25,201 nucleotides of DNA from a virus, in the IMG/VR virus record IMGVR_UViG_3300036715_002351, positions 1 to 25,201 of that record; one strand, given 5' to 3'. This document shows positions 5,323 to 12,927 of the stretch, one piece after another (positions within the stretch are counted from its first letter, which is position 1; every line of letters begins with the position of its first letter). The translations under genes were made by a program, and so were the position numbers. Below the pieces are notes generated by a model. The model saw nothing but the letters and a program-made list of their open reading frames with translations. It was not told where the DNA came from and made no database searches.

Positions 5323-7305
5323 ATGAACGACTTCCAAGCCTTCTCGAAAGCAGTCGAAGCGAAGTTCGCCGCCATGTCACAGGGTGAGCTCTTCGTCGTC
5401 GAGGTCGAAGACATCTTCGACTCCTACCTCGCGGCATTCCCTGCGGGATCGAACCCGATCTACCGCGAACGCACCGAGCACGACTGCTCCTGCTGCAAGC
5501 ACTTTGTGCGGCACCTGGGTCACGTCGTCGCGTTCGGCGCGGGTGACCAGCGCACGTCGATCTGGGACATTGACGGCCTACCCGAGCCCTACGCGACGGT
5601 CGCCGCGCGCATGTCGGCCCTGGTTGATCAAATGCCGATCAAGACGGTCTACCGCACGAAGGAGCACCGGTTCGGCATTGAATCGAACCTGGGACTGGTC
5701 GACGGTGAGACCCGCAAGTTTAACCACTTTGTCGGTCAGATCGCGTCGCGGCACTACGCAGCGGAACCCGACACCGCGCGGTCGAACCTTGAAGCCGTCG
5801 CGCAGGTCCTGCGCCGTGGCCTTGAGGAGCTCAAGATCGAGGCCTTCGATGCGGTACTCGACCTGATCGACTCGAAAGCAATCTACCGCGGTGCTGAGTT
5901 CCGTGAGCAGGTCACCTCGTTTAAACGGCTCGTCCAGGCGTTCGCGGTGAAGTCGCCGTCCGACCGCGAGGCCTTCGTCTGGGATCACCTGGACGAACCG
6001 GCTGCGCGCTTCCGGAACACTGCAATCGGAACACTGCTCGTGGACCTGTCCGAAGGTGTCGAGATCGAACACGCGGTGAAGTCCTTCGAGGCGAAGGTGG
6101 CGCCGACGAACTACAAGCGCCCGACCGCGCTGATCACGGCGAAGATGGTGGACCTTGCGGTAGCCAAACTGAGCGAGCTCGGATTGACGACTGCAGTTGA
6201 GCGTCGGTTCGCTCGCCTGTCTGACGTGACGGTGAACAACGTGCTCTGGGTGGACAACTCGGTCAAGGGCTCGATGAAGGGTGGAATTTCTGGTCTCTTG
6301 TCCGGCGACGTTAAGGTGCCGTCGGTCGACCTGCGGACGGCTTCGCTGATCATGATGGATGACTTCCTGACCGACGTGATCCCGACGGCGACCAGCATCA
6401 AGCTGGCCCTCGAGAACAAGCACCTGAGCAACTTCATGTCGCTCACCGCGCCTGTTCACCCGGACGCGGGGAACCTGTTCAAGTGGGATAACAACTTCGC
6501 TTGGTCTTACGACGGCGAGGTGACCGACTCGATCAAGGAACGCGTCAAGGCCGCGGGCGGTAACGTCACTGGCACGATGCGCGTCTCGCTCGGGTGGCAC
6601 AATTTCGACGACCTCGACCTCCATGTGATCGAACCCAACGGGAACCGAATCTCCTTCTACAACAAGTGCAACAAGCTGGACGTGGACATGAACGCGGGCG
6701 GCCATCATTCGCGTGATCCCGTCGAGAACGTGACGTGGCAAGGCAAGCTGGCCGATGGTGAGTACCAGGTCATCGTCAACCAGTACATGAAGCGGGAATC
6801 CGTTGACGTCGGGTTCACGCTCGAGGTTGAGTATGCCGGATACATCAAGCAGTACTCGATGCCGACGTCCCCGACTGGTGAACTGTACTGCCTCAAGCTG
6901 AAGGTCCAGTCGGGCAAGCTGGCTGAGGTCACCATGCTGAAGAAGATGACCGTCGGGTCGTCGTCGCAAGAGAAGTGGGGCGTATCGTCGCAGAGGCTCA
7001 TCCCGGTCGACACGCTGATGCTGTCCCCGAACTTCTGGGATGGGCAGACCATCGGCAACAAGCACTGGTTCTTCATGCTTCACGGCCTGAAGAACCCCAA
7101 CGCCACCCGCGGGATCTACAACGAGTTCCTGCGTTCGACCCTCGACCCGCACCGGAAGGTCTTCGAGGTGCTGGGCGCGCGGACCAAGTGCCTGCCTGCC
7201 GATGACCAGCTGTCTGGTGTCGGCTTCTCGTCAACCCGTGGCGACCGGGCTACCGTCGTCGTCAATGAGTCGGGCAAGTCCCACGCATTCAACGTCCAAT
7301 TCTGA
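5323..7305 (+). CDS. large phage protein with Cys cluster and DUF2135/YfaP-like domain, 660 aa
   Basis: The longest gene of the window. The N-terminus holds HDCSCCKHFVR (53-63), a compact Cys/His cluster that could bind zinc or iron. The middle (about 150-400) is mainly helical. Residues about 413-510 resemble the DUF2135/YfaP beta-domain: LGWHNFDDLDLHVIEPNG, then LDVDMNAGGHH, then GEYQVIVNQY. In cellular proteins that domain often accompanies von Willebrand A domains, but no MIDAS motif (DxSxS) is seen here. A GGAG Shine-Dalgarno supports the start. It is followed 11 bases later by a 138-residue partner, and the pair has its own promoter/operator. Similar long hypothetical proteins occur in many tailed phages; the function is unknown to me. 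Confidence 0.85.
   Translation: MNDFQAFSKAVEAKFAAMSQGELFVVEVEDIFDSYLAAFPAGSNPIYRERTEHDCSCCKHFVRHLGHVVAFGAGDQRTSIWDIDGLPEPYATVAARMSALVDQMPIKTVYRTKEHRFGIESNLGLVDGETRKFNHFVGQIASRHYAAEPDTARSNLEAVAQVLRRGLEELKIEAFDAVLDLIDSKAIYRGAEFREQVTSFKRLVQAFAVKSPSDREAFVWDHLDEPAARFRNTAIGTLLVDLSEGVEIEHAVKSFEAKVAPTNYKRPTALITAKMVDLAVAKLSELGLTTAVERRFARLSDVTVNNVLWVDNSVKGSMKGGISGLLSGDVKVPSVDLRTASLIMMDDFLTDVIPTATSIKLALENKHLSNFMSLTAPVHPDAGNLFKWDNNFAWSYDGEVTDSIKERVKAAGGNVTGTMRVSLGWHNFDDLDLHVIEPNGNRISFYNKCNKLDVDMNAGGHHSRDPVENVTWQGKLADGEYQVIVNQYMKRESVDVGFTLEVEYAGYIKQYSMPTSPTGELYCLKLKVQSGKLAEVTMLKKMTVGSSSQEKWGVSSQRLIPVDTLMLSPNFWDGQTIGNKHWFFMLHGLKNPNATRGIYNEFLRSTLDPHRKVFEVLGARTKCLPADDQLSGVGFSSTRGDRATVVVNESGKSHAFNVQF
5918..5927. 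repeat. CGTTTAAACG palindrome, copy 2 (intragenic)
   Basis: Identical 10-bp palindrome inside the 660-residue gene, contributing part of Ser-Phe-Lys-Arg codons. Unlike copy 1 it needs no rare codon. Confidence 0.55.
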
Positions 7306-9663: not shown

Positions 9664-10635
9664 ATGCTGAAAGATACCAACCCGAAGGACGCCGTGGGCG
9701 TTCGCAAGTGGCGGCAATACTGCACGGTGCCCACGACCATCATCTGGGAACTTGGCGTCGCCATGCTCGAAGGCGCGCGCAAGTACGGACGCCATAACTA
9801 CCGGGTGGCTGGGGTTCGCGCGTCGGTTTACGTTGATGCGGCAAAGGGCCATATTGACTCCTGGTGGGAAGGTGAAGATATCGACGCGGACAGCGGCCTG
9901 TCTCACGTCACGAAGGCCATGGCGTCGCTCGCGGTCCTTCGGGATGCCATGATCAATGACATGCTGACCGACGACCGCCCGCCGAAGGTCAAAGGGTTCG
10001 AGTCGTTCAAGGCCAACATGCAGAAGGCCGTTGAGTCGATCATGGAGCGCCATCCGGATGCCTGCGAGCCCTTCACAGAGCTGGGTCAGCAGGCGGTTCG
10101 CGCGGTCGTCCCTACCATCACGCGTGAAGAGGTCGAATCCCGGTTGCTCGAGGAGCGCTCGAGGGCTACTCTGGTTGCAAAGGCCGGAGGCGAGGTTCAG
10201 GGGACGATCTACGAGTCAGAGCCCGACGGCCGTTGCGCCTACGTCGTCGCGCACCGCTTCGTGGGCATCGAGTTCGTGGATCCCGACCATCTCGAGTTCG
10301 ACCGGATGCACATCTGGGCAGGCCTTACGACCAAGCAGCTGTGCCAGCTCGTCCGCGCGGAGGCGAAGGACGGTGGAGGGTGCGGGATGAACCACGAGAG
10401 CAAGACGGGCAACCTGAGGATCTACCGGCCTGATCAGTTCGACGGGCTGCTTATCCGTGTCGTGGATCGCATCTCGCAGCAGCCATCGCGCGAGGCTGAA
10501 CTGCACTGGGACTTCGGCACGGCAACGTGCAAGTCACGCTTGACGGAGGAGCAGTGGAAGCTGGCCATCCCGGAGCTCAAATCTGTTCACGTCAAACCGT
10601 ACCACGGCGCGATTGGTCGCGCCATCAACAAGTAG
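9664..10635 (+). CDS. protein with N-terminal dATP/dGTP diphosphohydrolase domain (DUF5664), 323 aa
   Basis: Residues 1-105 match the DUF5664 family (dATP/dGTP diphosphohydrolase, N-terminal): NPKDAVGVRKW (6-16), a helix LGVAMLEGARKYGRHNYR (30-47), YVDAAKGHIDSWWEGEDID (56-74) and GLSHVTKAMASLAVLRDA (78-95), with the acidic and His residues used for metal binding. A relative, MazZ, serves Z-genome (2-aminoadenine) phages, but the domain also occurs in ordinary phages. Residues about 150-323 form a second domain of unknown function, with Cys (Cys194, Cys220) and Trp residues. AAGGAG precedes ATG. The fusion and the nearby MazG gene indicate dNTP pool control; no purZ or datZ is visible here. 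Confidence 0.78.
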   Translation: MLKDTNPKDAVGVRKWRQYCTVPTTIIWELGVAMLEGARKYGRHNYRVAGVRASVYVDAAKGHIDSWWEGEDIDADSGLSHVTKAMASLAVLRDAMINDMLTDDRPPKVKGFESFKANMQKAVESIMERHPDACEPFTELGQQAVRAVVPTITREEVESRLLEERSRATLVAKAGGEVQGTIYESEPDGRCAYVVAHRFVGIEFVDPDHLEFDRMHIWAGLTTKQLCQLVRAEAKDGGGCGMNHESKTGNLRIYRPDQFDGLLIRVVDRISQQPSREAELHWDFGTATCKSRLTEEQWKLAIPELKSVHVKPYHGAIGRAINK

Positions 10636-11772: not shown

Positions 11773-11798
11773 TCGAGACACGCCTCCTGTGCCGTTCT

Positions 11799-11820
11799 GC
11801 GGTTGTTGCCTAGCAACCGT
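11799..11820 (+). terminator. hairpin after the 11239-11772 unit
   Basis: CGGTTG (11800-11805) pairs with CAACCG (11814-11819) over the loop TTGCCTAG. It stands 28 bases after the last stop codon of the unit, where a terminator is expected, but no T-run follows. The same TTGCCTA and GCAACC words occur in the promoter region at 7788-7812. Confidence 0.35.
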
Positions 11821-11901
11821 CATAGGCCTTGGTTCGCTTGCGCGGAGGCGTCTGGAGTATGTGGCGAACCAGGGATGGGCGTCCACCGTGCGAGAACGGT
11901 A

Positions 11902-11960
11902 GGGCTGGAAACTTCGTCTACAGTGGGGAATGAGCCCCGTCTGGGCGTGGTTTCCAGCCC
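11902..11960 (+). other. long structured stem-loop in the non-coding region
   Basis: GGGCTGGAAAC (11902-11912) is perfectly complementary to GTTTCCAGCCC (11950-11960). The 37-base interior contains a second hairpin, GGGG (11925-11928) with CCCC (11935-11938). An 11-pair perfect outer stem is unlikely by chance. It could be a small structured RNA, a strong transcription stop, or a DNA element of the adjoining repeat region. No coding frame is supported across it. Confidence 0.5.
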
Positions 11961-11974
11961 GCTTTCATTGGTGC

Positions 11975-12220
11975 GGTGATGCGGGCTGGCGATGCGTGCT
12001 TACGCGCGCGCGTGAGACGCAATTTGGAAAAAGGATTCTCGTGGAATCCGCTTGCATCGTCTGCATCATTTCTTAGTTGTCAATGGGTTAGCTGATGCGT
12101 GATGCAAGCGATGCGAGCGCATCACCAGAGATTGTGCTTTAGTTTCAATGGGTTTGGCGATGCAGACTTGCGGTATTAGGGTGCATCACCGTGGTGGTTT
12201 GACAGGGAATCCGGGGATTC
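11975..12220. repeat. GATGC/GCATC repeat cluster, candidate replication origin
   Basis: Ten copies of GATGC or its complement lie in 210 bases: GATGC at 11978, 11991, 12094, 12101, 12110, 12159 and GCATC at 12054, 12063, 12119, 12183. The longer word GGTGATGC/GCATCACC occurs three times. CAATGGGTT is repeated at 12081 and 12146. Two GGATTC/GAATCC inverted repeats (12033-12049 and 12207-12220) sit among or beside them, and the stretch is more AT-rich than its neighbours. No gene is supported. Iteron-like clusters of this kind are typical of phage and plasmid origins; that role is inferred. Confidence 0.5.
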
Positions 12221-12374
12221 TGTGCCAGGACTGAGTGATCAGGGGGATTTGTTGTTTTGAACGTCGCGCGAGTGCGTGCGTAAGGGCGGTTGAGATTCTA
12301 CCATTAGTAGGCGTCCGCACGCTGTTTCCATTCGCTGGCTGCCAGGTCGATCACGCTGAGACCTGCCTTCCTGG
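12221..12374. other. remainder of the non-coding region
   Basis: No convincing gene is seen. An open frame at 12235-12420 encodes a Cys/Arg-rich 61-residue product without Shine-Dalgarno and runs into the next promoter, so it is not annotated. Nothing else stands out. Confidence 0.4.
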
Positions 12375-12414
12375 TCGACGTTTCCAGAAAAGCAGGATAC
12401 AAGCGAGTTATCCT
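12375..12414 (+). promoter_or_regulatory. promoter/operator ahead of the packaging and modification genes
   Basis: TCGACG (12375-12380), 17 bases, TACAAG (12398-12403) form a moderate promoter. ACAAGCGAGTTAT (12399-12411) is a member of the palindrome family with one change, and AGGATA (12394-12399) with TATCCT (12409-12414) adds a second inverted repeat, as at 11115. The next gene starts at 12457. Confidence 0.5.
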
Positions 12415-12456
12415 ACTTGAGAAAGAGGATTAGAACACCTGCTTATGAGGTAGAAC

Positions 12457-12927
12457 TTGTCTGAAGAATTCAACGATGAACTGCCCATGGTGTTCTCCCA
12501 CAAGACGGTCGCGTCTGACGGATCCCAGCGCGGACTGCAACGTCGCGGAGTCAAGAACAAGCGTACTAAACTCATTGAAGAGTGCCGCGCGGCCGTCGAA
12601 CGAGACACCGGCATGAAGAACTGGGATCCCGTGGTCATGCTCGCCGTGATCTCGGCCCGGGCCTTCAGCGGTTATCCCGCGACCGACGAGAACGGCACGC
12701 CAATCCTGGACGCCGAGACGGGCAATCCCATCATGGTTCCACCCAATCCGGAGCTTGCCGCTGCCGTCGCGGCCAAAGCAGCCCCATATCTGCACTCTCA
12801 CCTGCGTCCCAAGGAGGTCGATCTCGACAAGGACGAAGACAAAGATCCAGGCGAGGTCAAGGAGCGAGTCCTGCAAGCGCTCGAGAACATGGGCGTCAAG
12901 GTTGTCCGCGATGAGGAGCGAACCTGA
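12457..12927 (+). CDS. possible terminase small subunit, 156 aa (TTG start)
   Basis: TTG 12457 is the best start (GAGGT five bases upstream); a later ATG would lose a conserved-looking segment and lacks a Shine-Dalgarno. The 156-residue product has a basic region (GLQRRGVKNKRTKLIEECRA, about 26-45), a helical core (WDPVVMLAVISARAF, about 56-70) and AAVAAKAAPYLHSHLRPKEV (about 100-119), a pattern seen in phage proteins annotated as small terminase subunits or DNA-binding proteins. The TerS call is inference from this pattern and from the terminase large subunit 3.2 kb downstream. The separation is larger than usual. Confidence 0.6.
   Translation: MSEEFNDELPMVFSHKTVASDGSQRGLQRRGVKNKRTKLIEECRAAVERDTGMKNWDPVVMLAVISARAFSGYPATDENGTPILDAETGNPIMVPPNPELAAAVAAKAAPYLHSHLRPKEVDLDKDEDKDPGEVKERVLQALENMGVKVVRDEERT

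Follow-up and report, generated by a model that had tools for sequence, protein, structure and literature searches.

A paired repeat element, most likely a replication origin, in phages related to Nanhaivirus

Introduction

The replication origin of phage lambda consists of clustered O-protein iterons beside an AT-richer stretch. Iteron-like short words are also present at the packaging sites P1 pac and lambda cosB, where they extend over 100-200 bp close to the small-terminase gene. The Bacillus phage SPP1 has two origins, oriL and oriR, which are described as similarly organised, with direct repeats and an AT-rich unwinding element, and as bound by gp38 (PMC6316719). One origin lies in a late-gene intergenic region (PMC6316719) and one has been proposed to stall forks late (PMC6316719; PMC3485210).

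Here we describe a repeat element in a 25,201-nt stretch of viral DNA (IMG/VR record IMGVR_UViG_3300036715_002351; hereafter the window), which, judging from its sequence, is a fragment of a siphophage, a virus of bacteria, related to Nanhaivirus (Pan1, R26L and R5C). The element resembles SPP1 oriL/oriR in having two sites per genome, and may also share the combination of repeats with an AT-rich part. However, the SPP1 origins are ~12-13 kb apart on the circular map, one of them within the initiator gene, whereas both copies of the element described here are non-coding, lie half a genome apart and are flanked by alternating CG tracts without a recognised initiator. As at lambda ori, clustered repeats that presumably bind an initiator are found near an AT-richer stretch, but the single lambda origin is within gene O and its iterons are evenly spaced, whereas the element here occurs in two copies with words in both orientations and at irregular spacing, a layout that differs from textbook iterons. 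As at P1 pac and lambda cosB, short words cluster near a small-terminase-like gene, but those sites are single per genome and the element here has a second copy beside thyX. On balance, we lean towards the view that a phage protein binds positions 11964-12282 of the window, that each genome has two such sites, and that they are most likely replication origins, forming a pair like SPP1 oriL/oriR.

Results and discussion

A repeat element in the gap before the packaging genes

The large terminase encoded in the window shares 80-82% identity with those of R26L and Pan1 and 60% with that of R5C. Reading rightward, helicase, exonuclease and nucleotide-metabolism genes are followed by a 684-nt gap (11773-12456) and then by genes for a 156-aa terminase-like protein, a methyltransferase, the large terminase (~4 kb beyond the element) and the portal. 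The gap is non-coding and has a GC content of 55% compared with ~60% for the window, in line with the AT-richer, non-coding setting originally described. Relatives encode the 156-aa protein with 48-64% identity and, in each, its gene lies directly downstream of the corresponding gap, which we call locus B. Profile searches of this protein against Pfam, PHROG and PDB gave no match, and its identity as a small terminase is putative, coming from position and sequence motifs only. The features of the locus are as follows.

11795 to 11965, plus strand: conserved structured RNA, immediately upstream of the element and not part of it (covariation and folding)
11964 to 12282, plus strand, the orientation common to the downstream genes: repeat element, copy B of a two-copy element (alignment to the A-locus element of contig L024/L115)
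11978 to 12187, both strands: cluster of ten GATGC/GCATC words, six on the plus and four on the minus strand, presumed protein-binding sites (word positions; conservation in the L024 copy)
11991 to 12020, plus strand: CG tract 1 and the GATGC word at its head, GATGCGTGCTTACGCGCGCGCGTGAGACGC, in which TACGCGCGCGCGTG is an alternating purine-pyrimidine run (identical over 30 nt in the L024 A copy)
12033 to 12221, no strand assigned: two GGATTC/GAATCC inverted pairs with two GANTC sites apiece, four in total (seen in the sequence)
12081 to 12154, plus strand: two CAATGGGTT repeats, at 12081-12089 and 12146-12154, each followed by a GATGC word (unique to these two places in the window)
12232 to 12284, plus strand: GAGTGATCA, a T-rich stretch (TTTGTTGTTTTG) and CG tract 2 (CGCGCGAGTGCGTGCGTA) (order shared by most A and B copies)
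12457 to 12927, plus strand: 156-aa small-terminase-like protein (position and sequence motifs only)

The original prediction placed an iteron-like, initiator-bound origin in this gap, and its description of the repeats was accurate. The ten GATGC/GCATC words start at 11978, 11991, 12054, 12063, 12094, 12101, 12110, 12119, 12159 and 12183, and the three extended words, at 11975, 12119 and 12183, read GGTGATGC or its complement. Both CAATGGGTT repeats are where they were said to be, as are the inverted pairs (~12033-12050 and ~12205-12221), but alignment to the homologous copy carries the element beyond the limits first drawn, to 11964-12282. GATGC occurred on average 2.1 times in local dinucleotide shuffles of the gap and none of 2000 shuffles reached ten; likewise, none of 1000 local dinucleotide shuffles contained any 5-mer ten times within 210 nt. 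However, when any word was allowed across all 25 kb, the observed cluster (log10 p of -6.4) fell within the range of the best per shuffle (-5.2 to -7.8), so that word count cannot carry the claim by itself. Counting words alone makes a weak case, and it is the position of the cluster and the comparison with relatives that make it convincing.

Most copies of the element, at both loci, share a common layout in which a CG-rich alternating tract is followed by the word cluster, TGATCW, a T-rich stretch, a second CG tract and then a gene. The run TACGCGCGCGCGTG in the first CG tract is the only alternating purine-pyrimidine run of at least 13 nt in the window. The AT-rich part of the window copy is modest, at 58% AT over 50 nt (99.4th percentile), whereas the two elements of R5C hold the two most AT-rich 50-nt stretches of its genome; elsewhere the peaks are at the ~98th percentile or above. 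The second CAATGGGTT repeat is kept in the L024 copy as TCAATGGGTT..GCGATGC. The GGATTC/GAATCC pairs are absent from that copy and are therefore probably inessential.

A second copy half a genome away

Direct DNA searches or searches with single proteins retrieved few relatives, and profile searches were needed. The gap before the terminase-like gene was also found in Pan1, R26L and R5C and in four IMG/VR contigs (L004, L005, L006 and L015), and a search of genome contigs for prophage relatives returned none. These gaps contain local word clusters, usually with differing words: TGCAGGG in R26L, Pan1 and L004, TATAGATCATAGACAAAAT plus GTGTGTC words in R5C, GAGACGGTGATCAGTTGA in L006 and a GTGTGGTTTTTGTGGTTT block in L015. 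The original prediction was to be taken as refuted if relatives sharing the flanking genes lacked the repeats, and the outcome is mixed. The exact words are indeed missing from the nearest named relatives, but there the gap holds a cluster of other words, which is found again elsewhere in that genome, at a second locus. Locus B of L015, a distant relative, has in addition an array (L015:7286-7739) of about ten TGATAATGATTCGC repeats, many at 28-29 bp spacing, and none of these was seen at its second locus; from its sequence, this may be a separate candidate binding array confined to B.

The second locus, A, is the gap that separates thyX from a divergent gene for an XRE-type repressor. CCCTGCA words of R26L and Pan1 cluster here too, about half a genome from B. 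In all five relatives with both loci readable, the longest exact match of A falls in B on the same strand (R26L, 17 nt; Pan1, 23 nt; R5C, 19 nt; L006, 24 nt; L015, 38 nt). For R26L, Pan1 and R5C, all exact matches of A were ranked against the whole genome, and for L006 and L015, A and B were compared directly. When every A was compared with every B, the pair from the same genome scored best in 5/5 cases. Low-gap-cost local alignment of A and B did not rise clearly above background in R26L and R5C, whereas exact-match ranking did separate them. In the three complete genomes the arc from A to B is 0.493, 0.491 and 0.486 of the genome, and the copies share one orientation, along the transcription of the downstream genes. 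In R26L, as oriented here, A is at ~36 kb and B at ~75 kb. Copy A precedes thyX and the replication genes, copy B precedes the packaging and head genes, and together they flank the block of phage replication genes.

The window covers only part of its genome and has no A locus. However, a profile of the XRE protein retrieved 15 A loci, one of which, on contig L024/L115 (IMGVR_UViG_3300036715_000237), carries a GATGC-type element. Positions 11964-12282 of the window align to it with 220 identities, 46 mismatches and 67 gap positions (score 640), compared with scores of at most 282 for any other B locus, and the longest exact word, 30 nt, covers the first CG tract. Seven of the ten GATGC words are fully conserved in this copy against 3.3 expected for random 5-mers, a count equalled in ~2% of draws. 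The contig also encodes thyX, SF2 helicase, GrpE-like, Pam3-gp34-like and primase proteins, and it may come from the same phage as the window or from a near relative. Two similarly organised sites that share words, as in SPP1, are found in 5/5 relatives, with the window copy paired through L024. The two loci of any one genome have matching words, which usually differ from those of other genomes. Together with the conserved layout, this would be expected of a phage DNA-binding protein coevolving with its two sites, or of recombination that keeps the copies alike.

Adjacent RNA and operator-like palindromes

A 170-nt structured RNA lies between the upstream small gene and the repeat element (folding z-score, -4.5). 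Its fold has four hairpins. P1, which is conserved, has the loop TTGCCTAG, P2 is a long helix, P3 is small with a loop of the GCGAGA type, and P4 is a long stem with AAUGAG at its apex; in several relatives this last hairpin is followed by U-rich sequence. Across five sequences, 10 of the 21 pairs of P1 and P2 showed two-sided changes, a number reached in 0/500 shuffles and by no slid control. A covariance model run against 47 sources matched only the B loci of the window, R26L, R5C, L004 and L005, which are the sequences from which it was built. A search of this area against Rfam returned a single hit, isrB, which fell below threshold, and no family above it. The stretch may represent a new non-coding RNA of phages, or else a terminator complex.

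We also observed an operator-like palindrome (TATAAGCGAGTTATA / TATAACTCGCTTATA) in the window at 426, 3959, 5253, 11188, 18988 and 20972, with a variant near 12398. It has 8-15 copies per complete relative genome and is also found before the XRE-type HTH gene at locus A. From this distribution, the sites are probably the regulon of the XRE-type HTH regulator.

Function of the paired element

If the element is an origin, an initiator would bind the GATGC words, the T-rich or AT-rich part would open, and the phage helicases and primase would load. Copies A and B would then be a pair of origins; alternatively, one would be an origin and the other a late origin and fork barrier, as has been suggested for SPP1 oriL/oriR. 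That a protein binds, that the DNA unwinds and that replication initiates is what we infer from the arrangement. Initiation fits it best, because the replication genes are flanked by the two copies, which contain AT-rich parts, modest in the window, and agree with the description of two origins in SPP1. The element has the clustered, repeated words at a defined site that are typical of a repeat-type origin, ten of them and conserved in the homologue of the second copy, with binding predicted. No initiator family was recognised among ~30 proteins scanned, and the genes flanking the element encode an XRE-type regulator, ThyX and the terminase-like protein rather than an initiator. An initiator from a family not yet described may be encoded elsewhere in the genome. 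We therefore propose that the element works like a repeat-type origin and do not assign it to that class. Of the original prediction, the element with its repeated, presumed binding words is well supported, and its role as an origin is the likeliest function. A change in GC skew at the site had been suggested as a check, and here the prediction fared badly: in all three complete relatives the extrema of cumulative GC skew lie elsewhere, with none at A or B. Such a switch in strand composition supports an origin but does not strictly define one.

Transcription control is the main rival to this reading. Here the words would bind a phage regulator that switches on two large gene blocks, each copy lying upstream of one in the same orientation. 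Both copies are co-oriented with their downstream genes, and each stands at the start of one half of a genome whose genes run mostly in one direction. However, the palindrome TATAAGCGAGTTATA already looks like the general operator, and the clustered words occur largely at A and B, not before many operons. Moreover, the TATAAGCGAGTTA site is downstream of the element at B but upstream at A, which leaves no common promoter layout; because the operator-like palindrome changes sides in this way, the argument for transcription control is weakened, and we rate it as rather unlikely, although a real rival. The element could also be a duplicated site of segregation, recombination or nucleoid type, or purely a barrier to replication forks, and initiate neither replication nor transcription. 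Two co-oriented copies near half-genome spacing, homogenised in sequence within each genome, would suit such a site, but we noticed no partition gene pair in the annotations, and direct repeats half a genome apart would allow the genome to be split by recombination, so this appears improbable.

Less probable still is a site at which packaging starts (pac or cosB), to which the small terminase encoded beside it would bind. Copy B does lie directly upstream of the small-terminase-like gene, ~4 kb before the large terminase, and R5C is reported to be circular, without cohesive ends (PMC5454422). Instead of one site per genome, though, there is a second copy half a genome off, beside thyX, that would give half-genome starts, the terminase identity of the 156-aa protein is putative, and the separate B-only array of L015 would be a better pac candidate. 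Finally, the whole-window shuffles would allow a chance cluster in ordinary non-coding DNA, but seven of the ten words survive in a homologous copy at another locus and a paired element is present in every relative with both loci read, which makes chance very hard to credit.

Taking the origin reading further, we tentatively suggest, as a scheme that may well prove wrong, that initiator sites stand at the two opposite poles of a circular genome and point the same way. Each would drive a fork that copies one half along the direction of transcription, or one would start replication and the other stop it, triggering the switch to concatemers. The binding word would change from lineage to lineage yet stay matched at both poles. 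If the pair are origins, replication start sites would be located for Nanhaivirus and its relatives; in the genome papers of R5C (PMC5454422), R26L (PMC11806900) and the Pseudanabaena phages including Pan1 (PMC9837993), we found no passage on a replication origin or on these repeats. The group would also offer a natural series of matched site pairs with differing words, from which the initiator and its specificity could be found by covariation, and a Gram-negative parallel to the two-origin scheme of SPP1 with strict half-genome geometry.

Other observations

Clustering of CcrM GANTC sites was considered as a signal and dropped: it is raised in the window and in R26L, but L005 and L006 do not show it and the L024 copy has not retained it. 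The AEP-type primase beside locus A (L115:11153-12922) diverges faster across the group (49-63%) than its neighbours (60-78%); on these sequences it could be a possible lead to the reader of the repeat words, and we do not count it as evidence. Within the window, positions 9664-10635 encode a dATP/dGTP pyrophosphohydrolase domain fused to an unrelated C-terminal part, and the PHROGs family name for this product, 'endolysin; inhibits RNA polymerase', looks misleading. Positions 5323-7305 encode a 660-aa protein without a Pfam domain (PHROG 1735) that is conserved across hundreds of unrelated phages.
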